From positions 1-28,352 of the IMG/VR virus record IMGVR_UViG_3300027659_000161: 28,352 nucleotides of DNA. One strand, 5' to 3'. Origin of the DNA: a virus. The notes beneath the pieces were generated by a model, which was not told the origin of the DNA, did not search any database, and saw only the letters and a list, made by a program, of their open reading frames with translations. The translations under genes were made by a program, and so were the position numbers. Positions 1 to 28,352 of this stretch are shown here, in pieces. Numbering within the stretch: position 1 is the stretch's first letter; each line of letters starts with the position of its first letter.

Positions 1-1
1 T

Positions 2-919
2 GAATACTCTGAAAATGGGGAGGACTTAGGCATTGAGCAGATAGCTTTTACATCCACTCCTGCTATCAAAGTTATGGGGATGGCATTCAATTCTCAGGTT
101 AAGCAAATGATATTCAAAGACAATGTTAAGTATCGCATAGTTGCACCTGCTCTTATCCCTATGGAGATCTATCGTAAAGATGATGAGGATGGCAAAGAGT
201 ACTATGTATCATTTAGCAAAGAAGAGATAGAGAAGATACATTCTAAGTTTATGAAAGATATGTCTAATAAGGATCTGTTCAATTTAGAGCATGATACTAC
301 TGAGACAGTGCCTGCTTATGTACTTGAAGCATGGATAGTAGATAACCCACTTAAAGATAAAGCTTACTCATCATTTGGTATAGAAGTACCTACAGGTACC
401 CTAATGGTAACAGCACAGGTAACTGATGTTGAGTACTATAACCACTTAGTAGATAATGACCAGGTAGGCTTCTCAATAGAGGGATACTTAGGTATGAAAT
501 TAAAAGAGGTAACACAATTAAAAACAGATATAAATATGAACAAATTACCTGATGGAGAACACACTATCGAGGATAAGATCTATGTTGTAAAAGACGGTGA
601 GATTACTGAGATACGTGATGTTAAAGTAGTGGAGGCCTCAGAAGAGGTAGCCCTAGAAGATACAGTAGTAGAAGAGGAAGTAGTAGAGGAAGAGACTATG
701 GCTGTAGATCCTGTACTAGATGCTGAGGCAATACTAGCAATAGTTAAGCCTGCCCTAGATGCAGAAGTAAATAATTTAGTAGCTATGATAGCAGACCTTA
801 AAGCACAATTAGAAGATGCTATGGCTGTTGATAGTGAAGAGGATGTGGTAGTGGAGGAGCTTGTAGCTTTGAGCGTACAAGAAAAACTTAGTAAATTCAA
901 TCAATTTAATAATAAATAA
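2..919 (+). CDS. XkdF-like head maturation protease with scaffold-like tail (5' end is at the other end of the contig)
   Basis: Probable prohead protease fused to a scaffold-like segment. The frame is open from base 2; the first ATG in the window (74) is internal, because the matching copy at 28064 supplies 15 more N-terminal residues, giving 320 aa. Seen: an EHD motif near base 290, then AWIVDNP, and GFSIEG near base 467; the Ser of GFSIEG with the upstream His is the pattern of XkdF-type proteases. The last ~110 residues are very acidic (runs of VVEEE) followed by a probable coiled coil (AEVNNLVAMIADLKAQLEDA), as expected for an internal scaffold. The capsid gene follows 13 bases later and no separate scaffold gene is visible, so one protein may do both jobs. 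Family call is good; catalytic residues are inferred. Confidence 0.8.
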   Translation, partial: EYSENGEDLGIEQIAFTSTPAIKVMGMAFNSQVKQMIFKDNVKYRIVAPALIPMEIYRKDDEDGKEYYVSFSKEEIEKIHSKFMKDMSNKDLFNLEHDTTETVPAYVLEAWIVDNPLKDKAYSSFGIEVPTGTLMVTAQVTDVEYYNHLVDNDQVGFSIEGYLGMKLKEVTQLKTDINMNKLPDGEHTIEDKIYVVKDGEITEIRDVKVVEASEEVALEDTVVEEEVVEEETMAVDPVLDAEAILAIVKPALDAEVNNLVAMIADLKAQLEDAMAVDSEEDVVVEELVALSVQEKLSKFNQFNNK

Positions 920-2476: not shown

Positions 2477-2503
2477 AGCCCTGCATATTGTGGGGCTTTT
2501 TTT
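2477..2503 (+). terminator. Rho-independent terminator
   Basis: AGCCC (2477-2481) pairs with GGGCT (2493-2497) across an 11-base loop, followed by a run of seven T (2497-2503). It lies 20 bases after the stop at 2456 and closes the capsid/tube unit. The next gene therefore needs a new start signal, which appears to be the AATATAG element at 2512-2538. Confidence 0.8.
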
Positions 2504-2511
2504 ATTTCTAA

Positions 2512-2538
2512 ACATTTGCCTAACATCATATAATATAG
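2512..2538 (+). promoter_or_regulatory. Putative late promoter element (ACATT-N15-AATATAG)
   Basis: ACATT (2512-2516), 15 bases, then AATATAG (2532-2538), two bases before the ATG at 2541. Three other late genes (17733, 24984, 28064) carry ACAAA-N14/15-AATATAG in the same place. This copy lies just after a strong terminator, where a new transcript must begin to express the portal operon. The spacing to ATG would give a nearly leaderless mRNA. Confidence 0.5.
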
Positions 2539-2540
2539 TT

Positions 2541-2891
2541 ATGATATATATTGAACAGGGTGTTGTAAATCAGGTAGTGCTAACCTTAACAGAGGTCACA
2601 ACTGTACCCACCCCTCATTATCTATTTGCGTTCACTAATGAAATGAATACTCTATCAGTTACTCAGCTATTTACTACTGCTGATATTAGCTCATACCCTG
2701 AAAGATACAATCTTTTTGTATTAGATGAGCCTGTAGATATCACTTTGTTACAGGGACAATTTATTTACCAAGTTTATCAGAGCTCAGTACCCTATGTACT
2801 ACCTTTAACTATTGCACAATCCACAGGAGTGGTGATAGAAGAGGGTAGAATGGTGGTAAGTGGGCCTGTAGGGACTTCAATATACGATTAA
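2541..2891 (+). CDS. Small virion-associated protein of unknown role
   Basis: 116 residues from the ATG at 2541. The frame stays open upstream to 2490, but that earlier ATG lies inside the terminator stem, so 2541 (MIYIEQG) is chosen; it is also placed right after the AATATAG element. The protein is beta-rich with a recognisable order: VLTLTEVTT, YLFAFTNE, SSYPERYNLF, FIYQVYQS and a final GVVIEEGRMVVSG. There is no membrane segment or catalytic motif. It sits between the tail-tube-like gene and the portal gene, so a minor head or neck component is likely. The function is not known to me. It begins the transcription unit that continues through portal, connector and lysis genes. Confidence 0.65.
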   Translation: MIYIEQGVVNQVVLTLTEVTTVPTPHYLFAFTNEMNTLSVTQLFTTADISSYPERYNLFVLDEPVDITLLQGQFIYQVYQSSVPYVLPLTIAQSTGVVIEEGRMVVSGPVGTSIYD

Positions 2892-7519: not shown

Positions 7520-7552
7520 TTGTATACAATTCATTGTAAGTACGTATATTTG
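7520..7552 (+). promoter_or_regulatory. Early promoter, Bacteroidetes type
   Basis: TTG (7520-7522), 22 bases, then TATATTTG (7545-7552), matching TTG-N(17-23)-TAnnTTTG, the consensus of the Bacteroidetes primary sigma factor. It would give a short leader ending in AAACTAACCA just before the ATG at 7576. It drives the small early genes to 9567. Confidence 0.8.
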
Positions 7553-8988: not shown

Positions 8989-9208
8989 TCTACGTGATCA
9001 CATCTTTATGGCACTAGAAAGATTATCTGATGAGGACATGAGTAATGAGAAAGTACAGCAGGAAGTAGAAAAGGCTAAAGCAATAGCTCAGCTATCATCT
9101 ACCATCATTGCCAGTGCAAAAGTAGAGATAGACTATATAAATGCAGTAGGATTAATAGATAGTCAAAGTGAGCTGTTCAAATCAGTTAATCCTAAGCTAT
9201 TATCATGA
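8966..9208 (+). CDS. Small helical early protein (80 aa)
   Basis: 80 residues, almost all helical: LRDHIFMALERLSDED, KVQQEVEKAKAIAQLSSTIIASAKVEIDYINAVG. The segment EKAKAI-AQLSSTII-SAKVEIDY is a pattern I associate with small phage proteins next to replication genes in several host groups, but no role is known to me. The start lies 23 bases inside the HNH-like gene and the stop overlaps the next gene (ATGA). Confidence 0.65.
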   Translation: MANNKLSDLRDHIFMALERLSDEDMSNEKVQQEVEKAKAIAQLSSTIIASAKVEIDYINAVGLIDSQSELFKSVNPKLLS

Positions 9209-9567
9209 CTAGACTAGAAGAGGTGCAGTATATCATAGAAAAATATGAGCTGAAACAAAAGAGTAGATATATGCACATGCTATATAGAAGATATTACCTA
9301 TATAAAGTACTTAAGAGGGATGGCATGACACTATCACAAATTGGTAGGCTGTTTAACCAAACACACGCAACAGTGATAAATGGGATAGCAAAGCATGACA
9401 CTTACTCAAAGTATAAAGATAGTGCCTATATGTTGCACACTAGAGATTTAAGAGAGAAGTTTGTGCTACCACAATACTATAAGCCATTAAAGCAGAGGGT
9501 GTTAGAATGCACTAACCTGGAGAAATTAGAAAAATTAAAAGAGCAGATCAGATGCAACTATTACTAA
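9205..9567 (+). CDS. DnaA domain IV-like DNA-binding protein
   Basis: 120 residues. After an N-terminal helix, residues about 40-66 (GMTLSQIGRLFNQTHATVINGIAKH) match the core of the bacterial DnaA C-terminal domain: a G.SL.EIGR.F helix, then a turn, then H.TV..(A/G)I with His-Ala-Thr-Val replacing the usual His-Thr-Thr-Val that contacts the DnaA box. There is no AAA+ ATPase part, so it would bind DNA without ATP control. The gene is directly followed by five copies of the iteron GCGTCAT and then by the primase-helicase gene, so it may recognise the phage origin or repress the next operon. Family match is good; binding site is inference. Confidence 0.7.
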   Translation: MTRLEEVQYIIEKYELKQKSRYMHMLYRRYYLYKVLKRDGMTLSQIGRLFNQTHATVINGIAKHDTYSKYKDSAYMLHTRDLREKFVLPQYYKPLKQRVLECTNLEKLEKLKEQIRCNYY

Positions 9568-14539: not shown

Positions 14540-14547
14540 TATATTTG
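14540..14547 (+). promoter_or_regulatory. Bacteroidetes-type promoter element 4 bases before a start codon
   Basis: TATATTTG at 14540-14547, with the ATG of the next gene at 14552. Since this element is centred about 7 bases before the transcription start, the mRNA would begin at or within a base or two of the ATG, that is, leaderless. It could drive a separate unit running into the sigma-like and terminase genes. Confidence 0.6.
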
Positions 14548-14800: not shown

Positions 14801-14994
14801 AACTCGTAGATACAATAGCTAAGATGCCTGATAGTGAAAGGTATACTAAGTATAGCTGTATCAAATTGTATAAGATTAAAGAGAAGTATGAGGGTAGACA
14901 ACCTAGGGAGTGCTTCTGTGCATCAACTCGTAGGAGGATATGGTCAAAAGATTTTGAGACGTGGTATGAAAAAAGCCTTAGACAACTACATTAG
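14779..14994 (+). CDS. Small conserved-looking protein with CFC...RRRIW motif (71 aa)
   Basis: 71 residues: a helical N-terminus (TEAEIELVDTIAKMPDSERY), a Lys-rich middle and PRECFCASTRRRIWSKDFETWY near the end. The Cys-x-Cys, the Arg cluster and the Trp/Phe/Trp pattern suggest a nucleic acid or protein contact site. It lies between a membrane protein and the sigma-like protein, overlapping both. I do not know its function; a partner of the sigma-like protein is possible by position only. Confidence 0.6.
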   Translation: MFTEAEIELVDTIAKMPDSERYTKYSCIKLYKIKEKYEGRQPRECFCASTRRRIWSKDFETWYEKSLRQLH

Positions 14995-15499
14995 CAGCAA
15001 CTATGCTGAGGTGAGGGCATACACTGCCTACTTTCTATCTAAGATGGGGAGCTATATCGACGCTGATACCGTAATAAATAATTCATACCTACACGTAGTT
15101 ACAATAGATGGTGATCCTGGTAATGTTAAGGCCTACCTACTCAACACAATTAAGTATCAGGTGTTATGGTCTACATCAAAGAGCCACAGGGATGATAAGA
15201 TAACAGCCATTGAGCATCCATTAACTGAGCCTGTAGATGATGATGATTTGATGCATAAGCTGAGGGAAGATAAGAAGTATTCATTTCACAAAGGATTGAT
15301 AGAGATCTATCGAAATCAGATAACAGATAAGGTTGAACTGATAGTATTTGAAGCATACATTGATAAGGGATACATAACCAGTAGAGCATTAGCTACTTAT
15401 TTTGGAATAACACATACTCCTGCTTACTATTTGATAAAGGAATTAAAACAAAACATAAACAAATTACAATATAGGTATGAAACCGAGCCAAGTAATTAG
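14966..15499 (+). CDS. Sigma-70/ECF-like transcription factor, candidate late regulator
   Basis: 177 residues from ATG 14966 (MKKALDNY). An open frame extends upstream to 14834, but that part lies inside the previous gene. The N-terminal half follows the plan of sigma region 2: NYAEVRAYTAYFLSKMG, ADTVINNSYLHV (compare AEDLVQETFL) and VKAYLLNTIKYQVLWSTSKS (compare the WL..IARN...D.RR segment). The C-terminal part (VFEAYIDKGYITSRALATYF, then GITHTPAYYLIKELKQNIN) reads as a region-4 helix-turn-helix. An acidic linker (EPVDDDDLMHK) lies between. It precedes terminase and the late genes, and those genes share an upstream element unlike the early promoters, so it may direct late transcription. Moderate confidence, because similarity is by pattern only. 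Confidence 0.6.
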   Translation: MKKALDNYISSNYAEVRAYTAYFLSKMGSYIDADTVINNSYLHVVTIDGDPGNVKAYLLNTIKYQVLWSTSKSHRDDKITAIEHPLTEPVDDDDLMHKLREDKKYSFHKGLIEIYRNQITDKVELIVFEAYIDKGYITSRALATYFGITHTPAYYLIKELKQNINKLQYRYETEPSN

Positions 15500-17554: not shown

Positions 17555-17711
17555 TATCCTACATAAGATACAAGTGGTGCAAGCCTTCATCTACCATAAG
17601 ACAGGTAAGCAAGTGAGGATAGTATTTAACCGACCTGATAGGATGCAGCTGCACCTTCAGCTATTAGAGCAAGCTTATGCTGTTGCCATGGCTGAGTTCA
17701 AAAACAAATAA
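17544..17711 (+). CDS. Small protein after terminase (55 aa)
   Basis: Starts 11 bases inside the terminase gene. Strand-strand-helix pattern (VQAFIYHKTGKQVRIVFNRP, then DRMQLHLQLLEQAYAVAMAE). No family recognised. The overlap and codon content resembling the neighbours support it as real. It is followed by the late element at 17704-17730. Confidence 0.55.
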   Translation: MHSDILHKIQVVQAFIYHKTGKQVRIVFNRPDRMQLHLQLLEQAYAVAMAEFKNK

Positions 17712-17730
17712 TTTAATCTAAATAATATAG
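17704..17730 (+). promoter_or_regulatory. Putative late promoter element (ACAAA-N15-AATATAG)
   Basis: ACAAA (17704-17708), 15 bases, AATATAG (17724-17730), then GT and the ATG at 17733. Same arrangement as before 28064 and, with two changes, before 2541. It would start the tail gene unit. Confidence 0.5.
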
Positions 17731-17732
17731 GT

Positions 17733-19193
17733 ATGCCAACTACACAAATAGCAATAGCACAGCCACTGATGCCTGCATACAATCCTATCAAGTTTATCTA
17801 TGATAGCACAAACAACAACCTACAAGGTTTCAAATATATCTTTGATATCTACGAAAGTGGTACAGCTAACAAGATAGCAGAGTACAGGGTGATGCCTGTT
17901 TATGGCACTGGTTATGGTGAGGTAGATTTGTCGAAGCTCTTACAGGCTCAGGTAAGCTATGACTTAAACCTAACCAACACTACAGCATATAACGCAACTA
18001 ACAGCCACTACAAGTATGATGTAAAGGTAGGAGAAGAGTATCTGACTACTACCACTTATATTAACACACTTACATTTAGTGGAGTCAACGTGCAGATTAA
18101 CGTAGTCAATACATTTGTAGCAGGTGACCAAATCAATATCACTCAGGCAGATTTTGGTGTAGCCAACCCAAACCTTGAGGGGCTGTTCACAGTTCTATCT
18201 GTAGGGGTAGGCTTTCTAGTAGTGAGCTCACCATGGGCAGCTGTAACGAATGCAACTATCAATGGAGCTATCACTTATGCAGATGGTAGAAAGACAATCA
18301 CTAGGGATATAATCACAGCACTAAACAAATTTGTATTCAACGGAGCAATTAGATGGGTAGAATGGCCTAGCTATGACTATGATGATTTTATGCTTAATGG
18401 CTTTCAGGATAGATTTTTAACCAACCTACCACCTTCTGATTTCTATGCTACCTTATCCCAGGATCTATGGGTAAATGCTGTGGCTAATGGATCACCTACT
18501 CCTCCTGATACAGTATTCTTTCAGACAAGTGATGGTGATACTTTTGAAAAGAACGTAACAGCTACCGATCATGTTAGTGGTATATCTATAGGGCCTAACA
18601 ATCATGGTGTACTATCTGTAGTATCAGGAGCACTACCAATGATTAAGCCTACTACTGAATGGTATACAGTACGCTATGAAAGGAATGGCTTTCCAGACTC
18701 AAAACAATACAAGGTTAATTTAGATAGGAGAGTAAGAACAGTAGAGCACTCAATCTTATTCTTAGATCGTATGGGCTCATGGGGTAGCTTTGCTTTCACA
18801 GGAAGGGCATACACTACAGGTAACATAACACGTGAGCAATTTAACAAAGATATACCAGGATACGTTGAGACTTCAGGGATAGATAGATGGTTGTACGAAA
18901 CTACTGAGACAGGTATGACTAACACTTACATAAGCACTGATACTACCATAGCACTTAACACCGATTGGATGAATGAGACAATGGCTATGTACTTCACTGA
19001 ACTTTGTAGCTCACCAAATACCTATTTGAAGCTCAGCAACTATGATGCAGATTGTGAGGCACCTGAGAGTGCTGAGTATGTAAGCTGCACTATAGTCACT
19101 TCTACCTTTGAGGAGTTTAAGCAACGGAATAAGAATTTAATAAAGCAGAGCATAGTAGTTAAGCTAGCTAACAACAATATAGTAAACTCTTAA
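17733..19193 (+). CDS. Large virion protein, probably tail tip or baseplate component
   Basis: 486 residues, rich in Thr, Asn and Tyr, no signal peptide or membrane segment, long beta-rich stretches (LTFSGVNVQINVVNTFVAGD) typical of tail structural proteins. Near the C-terminus, WLYETTETGMTNTYIST and SAEYVSCTIVTSTFEEFKQR are distinctive but I cannot tie them to a named family. It precedes the 1,052-residue fibre/hub protein by 1 base and the tape measure gene after that, so it is a tail part by context. It could also be a tail-tip hub or a receptor-binding accessory protein. Confidence 0.65.
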   Translation: MPTTQIAIAQPLMPAYNPIKFIYDSTNNNLQGFKYIFDIYESGTANKIAEYRVMPVYGTGYGEVDLSKLLQAQVSYDLNLTNTTAYNATNSHYKYDVKVGEEYLTTTTYINTLTFSGVNVQINVVNTFVAGDQINITQADFGVANPNLEGLFTVLSVGVGFLVVSSPWAAVTNATINGAITYADGRKTITRDIITALNKFVFNGAIRWVEWPSYDYDDFMLNGFQDRFLTNLPPSDFYATLSQDLWVNAVANGSPTPPDTVFFQTSDGDTFEKNVTATDHVSGISIGPNNHGVLSVVSGALPMIKPTTEWYTVRYERNGFPDSKQYKVNLDRRVRTVEHSILFLDRMGSWGSFAFTGRAYTTGNITREQFNKDIPGYVETSGIDRWLYETTETGMTNTYISTDTTIALNTDWMNETMAMYFTELCSSPNTYLKLSNYDADCEAPESAEYVSCTIVTSTFEEFKQRNKNLIKQSIVVKLANNNIVNS

Positions 19194-24521: not shown

Positions 24522-24952
24522 ATTCCTTACAAGCAATAACCAACAAAATAATAGCATTCTACACAGCCCATAAGCAAGTGTTCAAAGTGGGTAGTGATTT
24601 CAAAGAACAGTTATATAACTTTGCTACTCAGAATGAGAAGTATCCCCTGGTGTATATCGTGCCTAGTGGAGTTATCCCTACTGAGAACACTACTGAGTTT
24701 ACCTTTGATATTTATTGTTATGACATCATCCAAAAAGATAGAGCTAACATCATCACTATATTAAGTGACACTCAACAGATACTTAGTGATTTGAACGTAT
24801 ACTTTAATGATAGCACTGACTATGACTTTGATGTGGTAGGAGTGCCTACCTTTACTCCCCTCAACAATGATCTATTAGATTACGCTGCAGGGTATCAGAT
24901 GAGTATTACACTAACAGTTAATGACTGGACTGATTGTGCAGTTCCAATATAA
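24518..24952 (+). CDS. Putative tail completion/terminator protein
   Basis: 144 residues, alpha/beta: an N-terminal helix (LQAITNKIIAFYTAHKQVFK), strands around KYPLVYIVPSG and FTFDIYCYDIIQKD, a helix ILSDTQQILSDLNVYF, and a final strand YQMSITLTVNDWTDC. The D..Q.D....ILSDT.QIL.DL segment and closing TDC..PI are a pattern I associate with small tail completion proteins of Bacteroidetes phages. It overlaps the tape measure stop by ATGA. The role is by context and fold impression; it could also be a tail assembly factor. Confidence 0.55.
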   Translation: MNSLQAITNKIIAFYTAHKQVFKVGSDFKEQLYNFATQNEKYPLVYIVPSGVIPTENTTEFTFDIYCYDIIQKDRANIITILSDTQQILSDLNVYFNDSTDYDFDVVGVPTFTPLNNDLLDYAAGYQMSITLTVNDWTDCAVPI

Positions 24953-24979
24953 ACAAAATTGAACTCTATAATAATATAG
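24953..24979 (+). promoter_or_regulatory. Putative late promoter element (ACAAA-N15-AATATAG)
   Basis: ACAAA (24953-24957), 15 bases, AATATAG (24973-24979), then four bases to the ATG at 24984. It begins at the base after the preceding stop codon, so the whole short gap is filled by the element. Confidence 0.5.
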
Positions 24980-24983
24980 GTAT

Positions 24984-26318
24984 ATGAATGATGTATTAAA
25001 GCAAATATCAGTTAATTTAGGAGTGACAGGTTATGATGATAGCAGTATTCTAATTGGTATAGCTGATTACTACGGTGTGAATACAACCATCTCTAATAGT
25101 CTAATGGGAGATATCTTAGATGCTGTAGGTGGCAACGCTGCTACTTCTAATAATTACATACAGGATATAGTAATAGCTTTAGGTGGCCCTAGCACTAGTC
25201 TTAACTGGATAGAGGAATGGGAAGCTATAACAGCAGTGCCTGTTTATTTCACTACTACATGGACTACTACAGCTCCAAACGAAACTATAACTCTACCTTA
25301 TGATGCAGCAGGTACTTATTCAGGAAGTATAGATTGGGGAGATAGTAATACAGATGTAAATAGTTTTGCTAACAATACTCATACTTATGCTGTAGCAGGC
25401 ACTTATACAGTTATAATAGATGGAGATTGCACAGGTTGGTATTTTGGTAATTATGGTGGCTCACCAAATATTACTTCAGTAGTAAATTGGGGACAGCTTC
25501 AATTAGGTCCTGATAACTATGGCTATAACTTTGTCTCTTGCTCTAACTTAGATTTATCTTCAGTTTCAGATACTTTAGATTTAACAGGGGTGACTATTTT
25601 TGATGGATTGTTTTTTGATTGTACTTCTTTAACTACAATTAATAATATAAATTCTTGGGACACTTCAGCAGTTACAAGTATGGCTGAGATGTTTAGTGGT
25701 TGCACTGCATTTAATCAAGCGTTAAGTTTTGATACTTCTGCTGTTGAAGCTATGGGTACTATGTTTACTAATTGTTCGGTATTTAATCAAGCATTGAGTT
25801 TTGATACTTCTGCAGTTACGAATATGGGTAGTATGTTTGAAGGTTGCACAGCATTTAATCAACCTTTGAGTTTTGACACTTCTGCAGTTACAGATATGAG
25901 TCAAATGTTTAGTGGTTGCACTGCATTTAATCAAGCGTTATCATTTAACACTTCAGCTGTTGAATTTATGAATAGAATGTTTAAAGATGCACCTGCATTT
26001 AATCAACCATTAACATTTAATACAATAGCAGTTCAAAATATGAGTTTAATGTTTACTAATGCTATTGCATTTAATCAAAATATAGGAAGTTGGAACGTAG
26101 AAAATGTACAAAACTTTACAGATTTTATGAGTGGCAAAACAGATGCAACTTTCTCTACAACTAATCTTAACGCAATCTATAATGGGTGGAGTACACAAGC
26201 AGTACAGTCAAGTTTAAGTATAAATTTTGGTACAGCTAAATATACAGTGGCAGCTTCAGCAGGTAGAGCTATACTTACAGGTGTTAATACATGGACTATA
26301 ACTGATGGAGGATTGTAA
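24984..26318 (+). CDS. Adhesin with BspA-like (DUF285) repeats, probable receptor-binding protein
   Basis: 444 residues. N-terminal part (about 1-80) is helical and small-residue rich, possibly the attachment domain; about 85-155 is PKD-like (GTYSGSIDWGDSN, then NNTHTYAVAGTYTVIIDGDC). From about residue 222 there are seven repeats of 24 residues with consensus FNQ.LSFDTSAV..M..MF..C.A, the BspA-like leucine-rich repeat (DUF285) used by bacterial surface proteins to bind proteins or cells. A C-terminal cap (YNGWSTQAVQSSLSINFGTA) matches that found after such repeats in Bacteroidetes proteins. It has no secretion signal, consistent with a virion part. The repeat region is more AT-rich than its neighbours, suggesting separate origin. 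Confidence 0.8.
   Translation: MNDVLKQISVNLGVTGYDDSSILIGIADYYGVNTTISNSLMGDILDAVGGNAATSNNYIQDIVIALGGPSTSLNWIEEWEAITAVPVYFTTTWTTTAPNETITLPYDAAGTYSGSIDWGDSNTDVNSFANNTHTYAVAGTYTVIIDGDCTGWYFGNYGGSPNITSVVNWGQLQLGPDNYGYNFVSCSNLDLSSVSDTLDLTGVTIFDGLFFDCTSLTTINNINSWDTSAVTSMAEMFSGCTAFNQALSFDTSAVEAMGTMFTNCSVFNQALSFDTSAVTNMGSMFEGCTAFNQPLSFDTSAVTDMSQMFSGCTAFNQALSFNTSAVEFMNRMFKDAPAFNQPLTFNTIAVQNMSLMFTNAIAFNQNIGSWNVENVQNFTDFMSGKTDATFSTTNLNAIYNGWSTQAVQSSLSINFGTAKYTVAASAGRAILTGVNTWTITDGGL
25650..26090 (+). repeat. 72-base tandem repeats in the adhesin gene
   Basis: Units of exactly 72 bases (24 codons). A 36-base segment beginning ATGTTTAGTGGTTGCACTGC is identical at 25689 and 25905, three periods (216 bases) apart, while the units between differ. 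Identical copies at whole-period distance allow in-frame loss or gain of repeats by recombination. Confidence 0.85.
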
Positions 26319-27511: not shown

Positions 27512-28019
27512 CTACTTGTTTAACTAGCTTATTTGTAATAAATAGTAAGTAAGGGATAGCTATGTTTGCCTTAAGTTCTTTAATCATTTTTGCCTTAAGT
27601 TTTAAGTGAGCTTCTGCATAGTGCTCAGCAGGTGTAAGGTCATCACGCTTAAAGAAAACTGCTAACACATCACTAATGTATCCCTTAGGTTTAGCTATGG
27701 CTATCTTCTCAATAAGCTTAGTATCTCTTACTGTCATTTTTAACTCAGCTGTGTAGCTGTATCCTGCTAACTCAATTTGTGAGATGGTAGGATAGTCTAC
27801 CTCAGGGATAGTATTAAATGCATTGGTGTACTCAATGAAGTCAGCCACATCTACATCATAGAACTCACTTTCAGCTACGCCTAGGCTAGCAAAAATCTGC
27901 AGGTGCTTATCTACAGCATCTAGCTCCTTGTTATTGCTAAGCTCGGTTATTACTTCAAACTGCTCAATGGTCAGTTCGTCAAGGTGGTTAGGGATATCCC
28001 TGCCTAAAATAGTTATCAT
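27486..28019 (-). CDS. Acidic helical protein, first of a minus-strand pair (possible tail assembly chaperone)
   Basis: 177 residues from the ATG at 28019 (MITILGRDIPNHLDELTIEQ); an open frame continues to 28070 but would run over the promoter and the start of the opposite gene. The protein is helical and acidic: HLQIFASLGVAESEF, FIEYTNAFNTIPEVDYP, then LIEKIAIAKPKGYISDVLAV and a final LLFITNKLVKQVDVPAEEVE. No known catalytic motif. A TATATTTG promoter lies 18 bases upstream, so, unlike other late genes, it would be read by the host's primary sigma factor. Its short divergent spacer is shared with the protease gene. Confidence 0.6.
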   Translation of the reverse strand: MITILGRDIPNHLDELTIEQFEVITELSNNKELDAVDKHLQIFASLGVAESEFYDVDVADFIEYTNAFNTIPEVDYPTISQIELAGYSYTAELKMTVRDTKLIEKIAIAKPKGYISDVLAVFFKRDDLTPAEHYAEAHLKLKAKMIKELKANIAIPYLLFITNKLVKQVDVPAEEVE

Positions 28020-28035
28020 AGTTTTTAATTTTAGA

Positions 28036-28061
28036 ACAAATATACAAATAATATAATATAG
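28036..28061 (+). promoter_or_regulatory. Putative late promoter element (ACAAA-N14-AATATAG)
   Basis: ACAAA (28036-28040), 14 bases, AATATAG (28055-28061), GT, then the ATG at 28064. It overlaps the oppositely directed TATATTTG promoter, so early and late use would compete. As the genes to its left run the other way, some rightward promoter must lie in this 44-base gap. Confidence 0.6.
28037..28044 (-). promoter_or_regulatory. Bacteroidetes-type promoter for the minus-strand pair
   Basis: On the minus strand the sequence reads TATATTTG (plus-strand CAAATATA), with a TTG at 28070-28068, 23 bases upstream. It exactly matches the early promoter type and would give a leader of about 14 bases to the ATG at 28019. 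Confidence 0.65.
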
Positions 28062-28063
28062 GT

Positions 28064-28352
28064 ATGGCAAAAGATAATTTACCTATTTACAAAATTACTA
28101 TAGATCCTGAATACTCTGAAAATGGGGAGGATCTCGGGATTGAGCAAATAGCCTTCACAAGCACGCCTGCCATTAAGGTCATGGGCCATGCTTTCAATAG
28201 CCAGGTTAAGCAAATGGTCTTTAAGGATAATGTTAAGTATCGTATTGTGGCACCTGCTCTTATCCCTATGGAGATCTATCGTAAAGATGATGAGGATGGC
28301 AAAGAGTACTATGTATCATTTAGCAAAGAAGAGATAGAGAAGATACATTCTA
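28064..28352 (+). CDS. Start of the XkdF-like protease gene (continues at base 246 of the window)
   Basis: The ATG at 28064 opens a frame (MAKDNLPIYKITIDPEYSE) that is the missing N-terminus of the protease at 2-919; after 15 codons it enters the segment that repeats the window start. Across the shared 81 codons only two residues clearly differ (His for Met in VMGHAF, Val for Ile in QMVFKD). Joined, the protein is 320 aa. This is the same gene seen twice because the genome closes here, not a second copy. Confidence 0.82.
   Translation, partial: MAKDNLPIYKITIDPEYSENGEDLGIEQIAFTSTPAIKVMGHAFNSQVKQMVFKDNVKYRIVAPALIPMEIYRKDDEDGKEYYVSFSKEEIEKIHS
28108..28352 (+). repeat. Terminal overlap with window positions 1-245 (contig closure, mosaic)
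   Basis: 28108-28352 lines up without gaps to 1-245. Bases 28250-28352 equal 143-245 exactly (103 bases). Over the first 142 positions I count about 30 mismatches, nearly all at synonymous sites. The exact part implies a circular or circularly permuted genome of 28,107 bp; the divergent part shows that the two ends come from different variants. Confidence 0.85.

Follow-up and report, generated by a model that had tools for sequence, protein, structure and literature searches.

Late transcription directed by a phage-encoded sigma factor has a measured precedent in Salmonella phage 7-11, whose sigma factor gp47 reads late promoters of the form GTAAtg-(16)-aCTA, while the related phage phiEco32 (gp36) uses a different late motif (PMC8948821). 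For phages of Bacteroidota, no late promoter class was found in the open-access literature searched. For the hosts of this phylum, the TATATTTG type is described as the -7 element recognized by the primary sigma factor (PMC6847099).

In this study, we analyzed the entire IMG/VR record of a virus type common in freshwater (28,352 bp; this whole stretch of DNA is referred to as the window). We describe a two-part element located in front of late gene blocks and, with a probability of about 0.75, interpret its copies as late promoters at which a sigma factor encoded by the phage would direct the host RNA polymerase, yielding leaderless or near-leaderless late mRNAs.

Materials and Methods

Both strands of the window were scanned with the pattern [AG]AACA-N15/16-[TC]AATATAG[GT]T, and 200 dinucleotide shuffles served as control. 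The set of relatives comprised 160 related loci or contigs obtained by terminase and portal searches. For conservation counts, AATATAG had to be located at most 16 nt from the start codon, and only distinct upstream regions were counted. For a blind scan in which genes were ignored, AAACA-N16-TAATATAGKTATG was matched against 2.9 million viral contigs. As baseline for codon usage, all conserved two-fold residues of the sigma-like protein were used (43, including those under the boxes). The structure of this protein was modelled using AlphaFold2 (mean pLDDT 77, pTM 0.40).

Genome map and likely host

The two ends of the window (1-245 and 28107-28352) carry variants of one protease gene with 87.8% identity over 245 bp. 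In relatives, the minus-strand genes are followed directly by protease, capsid, and portal without interruption. The map is therefore closed, and consequently the element at 28034 is assigned to the protease-capsid block, which continues at the left end of the window. The record ends may stem from two strain variants of one circle or permuted genome, or from a recombinant assembly.

Because no obvious Shine-Dalgarno sites were seen by eye at the gene starts inspected, the primase has a BT4734-like N-terminal domain, and TATATTTG is present at early genes, we regard the virus as a tailed phage infecting Bacteroidota. A search for the host of the clade was made among genome contigs, which yielded a single contig of a pond MAG labelled 'bacterium'. 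Megablast of positions 1-24000 of the window against 50,697 named phages gave no match, RNA families were absent from the Rfam search result, and the tRNA search of the window returned zero. A phage-encoded RNA polymerase was dropped as a reader of the motif, as none of the larger ORFs was identified as a polymerase in the family searches. ORF 8966-9208 matches PHROG 2044 'RNA polymerase beta subunit' (E 5e-19), a label which is doubtful for so short a protein; with 80 aa, this ORF was rejected as a phage polymerase.

A two-part element in front of late gene blocks

The element has the form AAACA-N16-TAATATAG(G/T)T-ATG, with the variant GAACA-N15 at 28034 (Table 1). Exactly five matches to the full pattern were found in the window, compared with a mean of 0.01 per shuffle; the maximum in a shuffle was one match, and none reached five. 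The evidence lies in the combination of the boxes, because the heptamer AATATAG alone is weakly enriched in the window (21 seen vs 13.9 expected). This mild enrichment is what could suggest a chance similarity in AT-rich spacers, a reading of negligible probability given the count of the full element and refuted by its conservation and specificity in relatives (see below).

The first-pass annotation had described four sites, with AATATAG at 2532, 17724, 24973, and 28055 in front of the ATGs at 2541, 17733, 24984, and 28064. All four are present as described; a fifth, before gene 15477, had been missed. The upstream box, given there as ACA(AA/TT) with a gap of 14/15, belongs to the same element and is better framed as AAACA (GAACA at 28034), which leaves a gap of 16 bp (15 bp at 28034) to TAATATAG. 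The terminator reported before the first site was recovered as a hairpin, and the reported strand switch before the last site is evident from divergent minus-strand genes starting at 28019.

According to PHROG annotation, virion, packaging, and lysis genes lie within the blocks opened by the five elements, and from these gene functions we infer the late class of the genes served; genes 2541, 15477, 17733, and 24984 are themselves without a named function. The element at 2510 opens a block with portal and lysis genes, with gene 2541 standing before the portal gene. The element at 15446, which sits within the 3′ end of the sigma-like gene 14966-15499, opens the block leading to the terminase genes, and that at 17702 opens the tail block, starting with a gene for a 486-aa protein. 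Gene 28064 encodes the protease, and its element opens the protease-capsid block.

Two more general searches were also performed. An unbiased 7-mer enrichment upstream of all ORFs recovered mainly A-rich start contexts. A generic sigma-70 promoter scan gave 44 and 49 matches in two overlapping halves of the window, which is not above shuffles, so that E. coli-type promoters are uninformative here.

Table 1. Positions of putative regulatory elements and of the candidate sigma factor gene in the window
Feature	Position	Strand	Description
Putative late promoter element	2510..2543	+	AAACA 2510-2514, 16-bp spacer, TAATATAG 2531-2538, TT, ATG 2541
Putative late promoter element	15446..15479	+	AAACA 15446-15450, 16-bp spacer, CAATATAG 15467-15474, GT, ATG 15477
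Putative late promoter element	17702..17735	+	AAACA 17702-17706, 16-bp spacer, TAATATAG 17723-17730, GT, ATG 17733
Putative late promoter element	24951..24986	+	AAACA 24951-24955, 16-bp spacer, TAATATAG 24972-24979, GTAT, ATG 24984
Putative late promoter element	28034..28066	+	GAACA 28034-28038, 15-bp spacer, TAATATAG 28054-28061, GT, ATG 28064
Terminator-like hairpin with T run	2477..2503	+	Hairpin 2477-2497, just upstream of the 2510 element
Host-type -7 element TATATTTG	14540..14547	+	Precedes gene 14552; the sigma-like gene lies further downstream
Host-type -7 element TATATTTG	28037..28044	-	Divergent genes, ATG 28019; overlaps the -35-like box of the 28034 element
Sigma-factor-like protein, 177 aa	14966..15499	+	Predicted fold with sigma2 and sigma4 domains (ECF-type architecture); candidate for reading the late elements

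Conservation and specificity among relatives

Across the 160 related contigs, the element precedes the orthologues of the five late genes and essentially no others. AATATAG before the ATG was universal for genes 2541 (35/35 distinct upstream regions), 15477 (52/52), and 28064 (34/34), and was present in 27/55 distinct upstream regions for gene 17733. The question raised in the first-pass annotation, whether the motif might be equally frequent before early genes, was answered with these relatives: among ~30 other gene groups, virtually none carries AATATAG before the start codon. Five AATATAG matches with a 22-nt gap at gene 19195 and a single match upstream of gene 5206 do not represent the element. 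No unassigned element site lies on the minus strand, and most of these sites correspond to the 24984 position, with a diverged N-terminus and the ATG directly after the element. The blind scan returned at least 120 stretches, and among the matches listed 120/120 encode at least two proteins of this phage clade.

The spacer between AAACA and TAATATAG is 16 bp at 56/56 sites of gene 15477, 35/35 of gene 2541, 12/12 assigned sites of gene 24984, and 53/60 of gene 17733; at gene 28064 in relatives it is 15 bp. In relatives, the ATG of gene 17733 lies 2 nt past the element at 29 sites and 13 nt past it at 30 sites. This shift of 11 bp in half of the relatives, with the internal spacing still being ~16, argues for an element of transcription and not of translation, and the fixed spacer combined with a movable ATG is, as judged by sequence comparison, promoter behavior, unlike that of a translation signal. 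It is thus very improbable that the element is a start-codon context serving translation initiation of the late genes, even though it adjoins the ATG at most sites and Bacteroidota, which lack Shine-Dalgarno sites, rely on start-codon context (PMC6847099). Fixed spacing to a box ~30 nt upstream is not a property of ribosome signals, the element is carried only by block-opening genes, and position -3 is occupied by G, unlike the favored A.

Selection at the DNA level within the sigma-like gene

The element at 15446 overlies the last codons of ORF 14966-15499, and in 53 homologues the codons under both boxes are near-frozen: K161 is encoded by AAA (53/53), Q162 by CAA (48/49), Q168 by CAA (53/53), Y169 by TAT (53/53), R170 by AGG (47/49), and Y171 by TAT (53/53). 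By comparison, the commonest codon accounts for 0.76 of the usage at the baseline residues, and the codons of E172, the next two-fold residue after the boxes, are split 33/20. The loss of almost all synonymous variation beneath the embedded element is, on the evidence of these alignments, DNA-level selection.

Host-type -7 elements before early genes

TATATTTG or TAnnTTTG was found before the early genes 7576, 12803, and 14552 (at 7545, 12773, and 14540, respectively), and TAnnTTTG is present before the orthologues of gene 14552 in 42/47 distinct upstream regions. The late elements do not have this form, as they read TAATATAG or CAATATAG. The leader that follows TATATTTG at genes 7576 and 12803 ends with AAACTAACCA-ATG, and this A-rich start context differs from the one at late genes. 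At the divergent minus-strand promoter, ACAAATATA is kept in nearly all relatives listed.

At 28034-28044, the late element overlaps this minus-strand host-type promoter. Similar overlaps are visible in phage P12024S (L241), upstream of 3031, 5412, and 23961. Such an arrangement would also be expected if the elements were operators, at which other promoters are repressed or timed by a phage regulator. Within the distances tested, however, no such overlap is seen for four of the five elements, and the bipartite, direction-fixed design right before genes suits a promoter better; operators are therefore regarded as slightly less probable still than a translation signal.

A candidate sigma factor encoded by the phage

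The gene 14966-15499 is present in 16/16 clade records searched. No sigma match to the 177-aa protein was obtained in Pfam, PHROGs, or PDB sequences, significant matches to the Sigma70_r2 and Sigma70_r4_2 models are absent in the window clade, and tblastn against named phages gave no match. The predicted structure consists of five helices, a low-confidence linker, and four further helices with an apparent terminal helix-turn-helix. The Foldseek list of PDB entries for this model is made up overwhelmingly of sigma factors (ECF SigL, SigH, SigE, AlgU), with an RNA-guided transcription complex (9n9q_C) in the top row; no PDB match passes E 0.001. In the viral structure library, the informative names among the matches are mostly sigma factors as well. 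VIA-align superposed the C-terminal part on a sigma-H factor (Z 8.9; 2.3 Å over 75 residues); the N-terminal part was superposed on an RpoE (Z 7.0; 3.4 Å over 76 residues). Superposition of the whole chain is poor (rmsd >10 Å), which is expected if the two domains are placed freely, and the domain matches are consistent. Helical bundles give structural matches easily. With 177 aa, the protein is below the ~200 aa of ECF sigma factors, and its two helical domains superpose on sigma2 and sigma4. According to its predicted fold, the product of ORF 14966-15499 is a candidate for a previously unrecognized two-domain ECF-type sigma factor.

From the elements and this protein, we infer recognition of the former by the latter, the timing, and the exact transcript 5′ ends. 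The late promoters might also be read by another protein, either a host alternative sigma factor or the host RNA polymerase with a phage activator, with the sigma-like protein doing something else. A second DNA-binding candidate is indeed encoded by ORF 9205-9567 (120 aa), which has a weak match to a DnaA C-terminal helix-turn-helix (Pfam E 2.2e-5, below the cut-off). We consider such another reader unlikely, in view of the -35/-10-like geometry with its fixed 16-bp gap, the presence of sigma-type genes in each of the three lineages with this design, and the variation of the second box by lineage.

Related designs in other phage lineages

Nonlabens phage P12024S, which is cultured and has an arrangement similar to that of the window, was reached through the portal search. 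Its gp33, annotated as 'Sigma-70 region 2' and matching PF04542 (region 2) above the cut-off of that model, is encoded shortly before terL, at the same place as the sigma-like gene; hhalign of the sigma-like alignment against gp33 was not significant. P12024S has seven AAACA-N15/16-CGTTA elements (0.04 expected), which adjoin the ATGs at 179, 3031, 5412, 21280, 23961, 25201, and 26802. As in the window, one element lies a short distance past the sigma gene. In a version of the blind scan using CGTTAATATA, the matches were mostly due to chance; of those with a long ORF directly after the element, 10/11 are in contigs carrying P12024-type genes.

A third lineage (L294/G016), whose portal protein is 37% identical to that of P12024S, has a gene with weak matches to sigma region 2 and region 4 in one frame. 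Here, AACA-N16-GTTATATAA.AG-ATG occurs three times (0.06 expected for the box pair, a figure obtained after the fact since the motif was first picked by eye). Across the three lineages, AACA and the 16-bp gap persist, and the second box differs by lineage. A sigma-domain match is also found in G013 and G014. In G013 (L564/L565), TTTTTCCACTAATAAA is repeated shortly before the ATGs of both the 8905 and the 9528 start, and perhaps represents its own late motif with a short leader.

Proposed course of late transcription

In the preferred reading, AAACA would serve as -35-like box and TAATATAG as -10-like box, separated by 16 bp. The host polymerase with its primary sigma factor would transcribe the early genes from TATATTTG promoters, including the block holding the sigma-like gene, of which TATATTTG at 14540 is the probable early promoter. 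The phage sigma factor would then redirect the host core polymerase to the five late promoters, one of which is located at the end of the sigma gene itself (terminase block) and the others before the structural, tail, protease-capsid, and portal-lysis blocks. A late holoenzyme bound at 28034-28044 could shut off the overlapping minus-strand early promoter, and this overlap is possibly an early/late exclusion switch.

As the ATG lies 2-4 bases past the -10-like box in the window, transcription is predicted to begin at the ATG or only a few bases from it, with the first nucleotide being the A itself or one no more than ~3 bases away. Late mRNAs are therefore, as predicted from this geometry, likely to be leaderless or nearly so, in hosts not using Shine-Dalgarno sites, and in half of the gene 17733 relatives a leader of ~11 nt would be predicted. 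In both P12024S and G016, a -10 hexamer at -12 to -7 agrees with transcription starting at the A of the ATG. Relative to the textbook spacing for such a start, the -10-like box of the window clade lies about two bases nearer to the ATG, so that transcription would start just inside the ATG if textbook spacing holds, or at the A if the discriminator is short. At gene 24984 in the window, the ATG is two bases further from the box.

The suggestion in the first-pass annotation that these sites form a phage-specific late promoter class, unlike the host-type TATATTTG early promoters, gains support from the comparative evidence, because the spacer is fixed, the element is confined to late blocks and independent of the ATG at one gene, DNA-level selection acts on it in a coding region, and a sigma-factor-like gene is linked to it. 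In a broader view, to which we give even odds, a widespread group of Bacteroidota tailed phages would rely on ECF-type sigma factors of its own, which are highly diverged, with AAACA as the constant -35 box, a lineage-specific -10 box, and the start codon at the transcription start, and would thereby express virion proteins from leaderless mRNAs bypassing leader-dependent (Kozak-like) initiation.

An early-to-late switch can be proposed, with its promoters and a candidate sigma factor named, for abundant uncultured freshwater phages and their cultured marine relatives. If the late mRNAs are leaderless, they offer a test of leaderless translation in a phylum not using Shine-Dalgarno sites. The constant -35 and changing -10 boxes provide a natural series for studying sigma-promoter co-evolution, and the phage-specific promoters could serve Bacteroidota genetics.

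Comparison with known systems

The late elements of the window share with Bacteroidota primary-sigma promoters (TTTG / TAnnTTTG) a downstream box of 8 bases that starts with TA and ends with G. They differ from them in that TAATATAG lacks TTT and the upstream box is AAACA and not TTTG; both promoter types occur side by side in this phage. ECF promoters have a -35-like box containing AAC and a spacing of ~16 bp, and the window element shares both features. The candidate reader, with its predicted sigma2 + sigma4 architecture and 177 aa, resembles ECF (group 4) sigma factors; unlike the ECF families, it has no detectable sequence similarity to them and is phage-borne.

Nonlabens phages P12024S and P12024L (Inhavirus) have in common with the window a similar gene order, a sigma-70 region 2 protein before terL (in the window, the sigma-like protein), and AAACA-N15/16-box-ATG before late genes. 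Their second box is CGTTAATA, in contrast to TAATATAG in the window, and the sigma proteins are not profile-alignable. In the annotation of both phages as shown, the elements are not described.

As in 7-11 and phiEco32, a phage-encoded sigma factor would act with the host core polymerase on bipartite late promoters with a 16-bp gap, and related phages carry different motifs. In the window, too, a repeated promoter-like motif stands before late gene blocks only. In the window clade, the candidate sigma factor of the phage is recognizable only at the fold level; in P12024S, the sigma factor is confirmed by Pfam. Differences from 7-11 and phiEco32 are the other host phylum, the different boxes, and the element adjoining the start codon. 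In addition, unlike in 7-11, neither Pfam nor PHROGs recognizes the sigma-like protein, and the -35 box is constant across lineages while the -10 box changes. The proposed system is of the same kind as that of 7-11, with a different phylum, a candidate sigma factor hidden at the sequence level, and an ATG-adjoining geometry.
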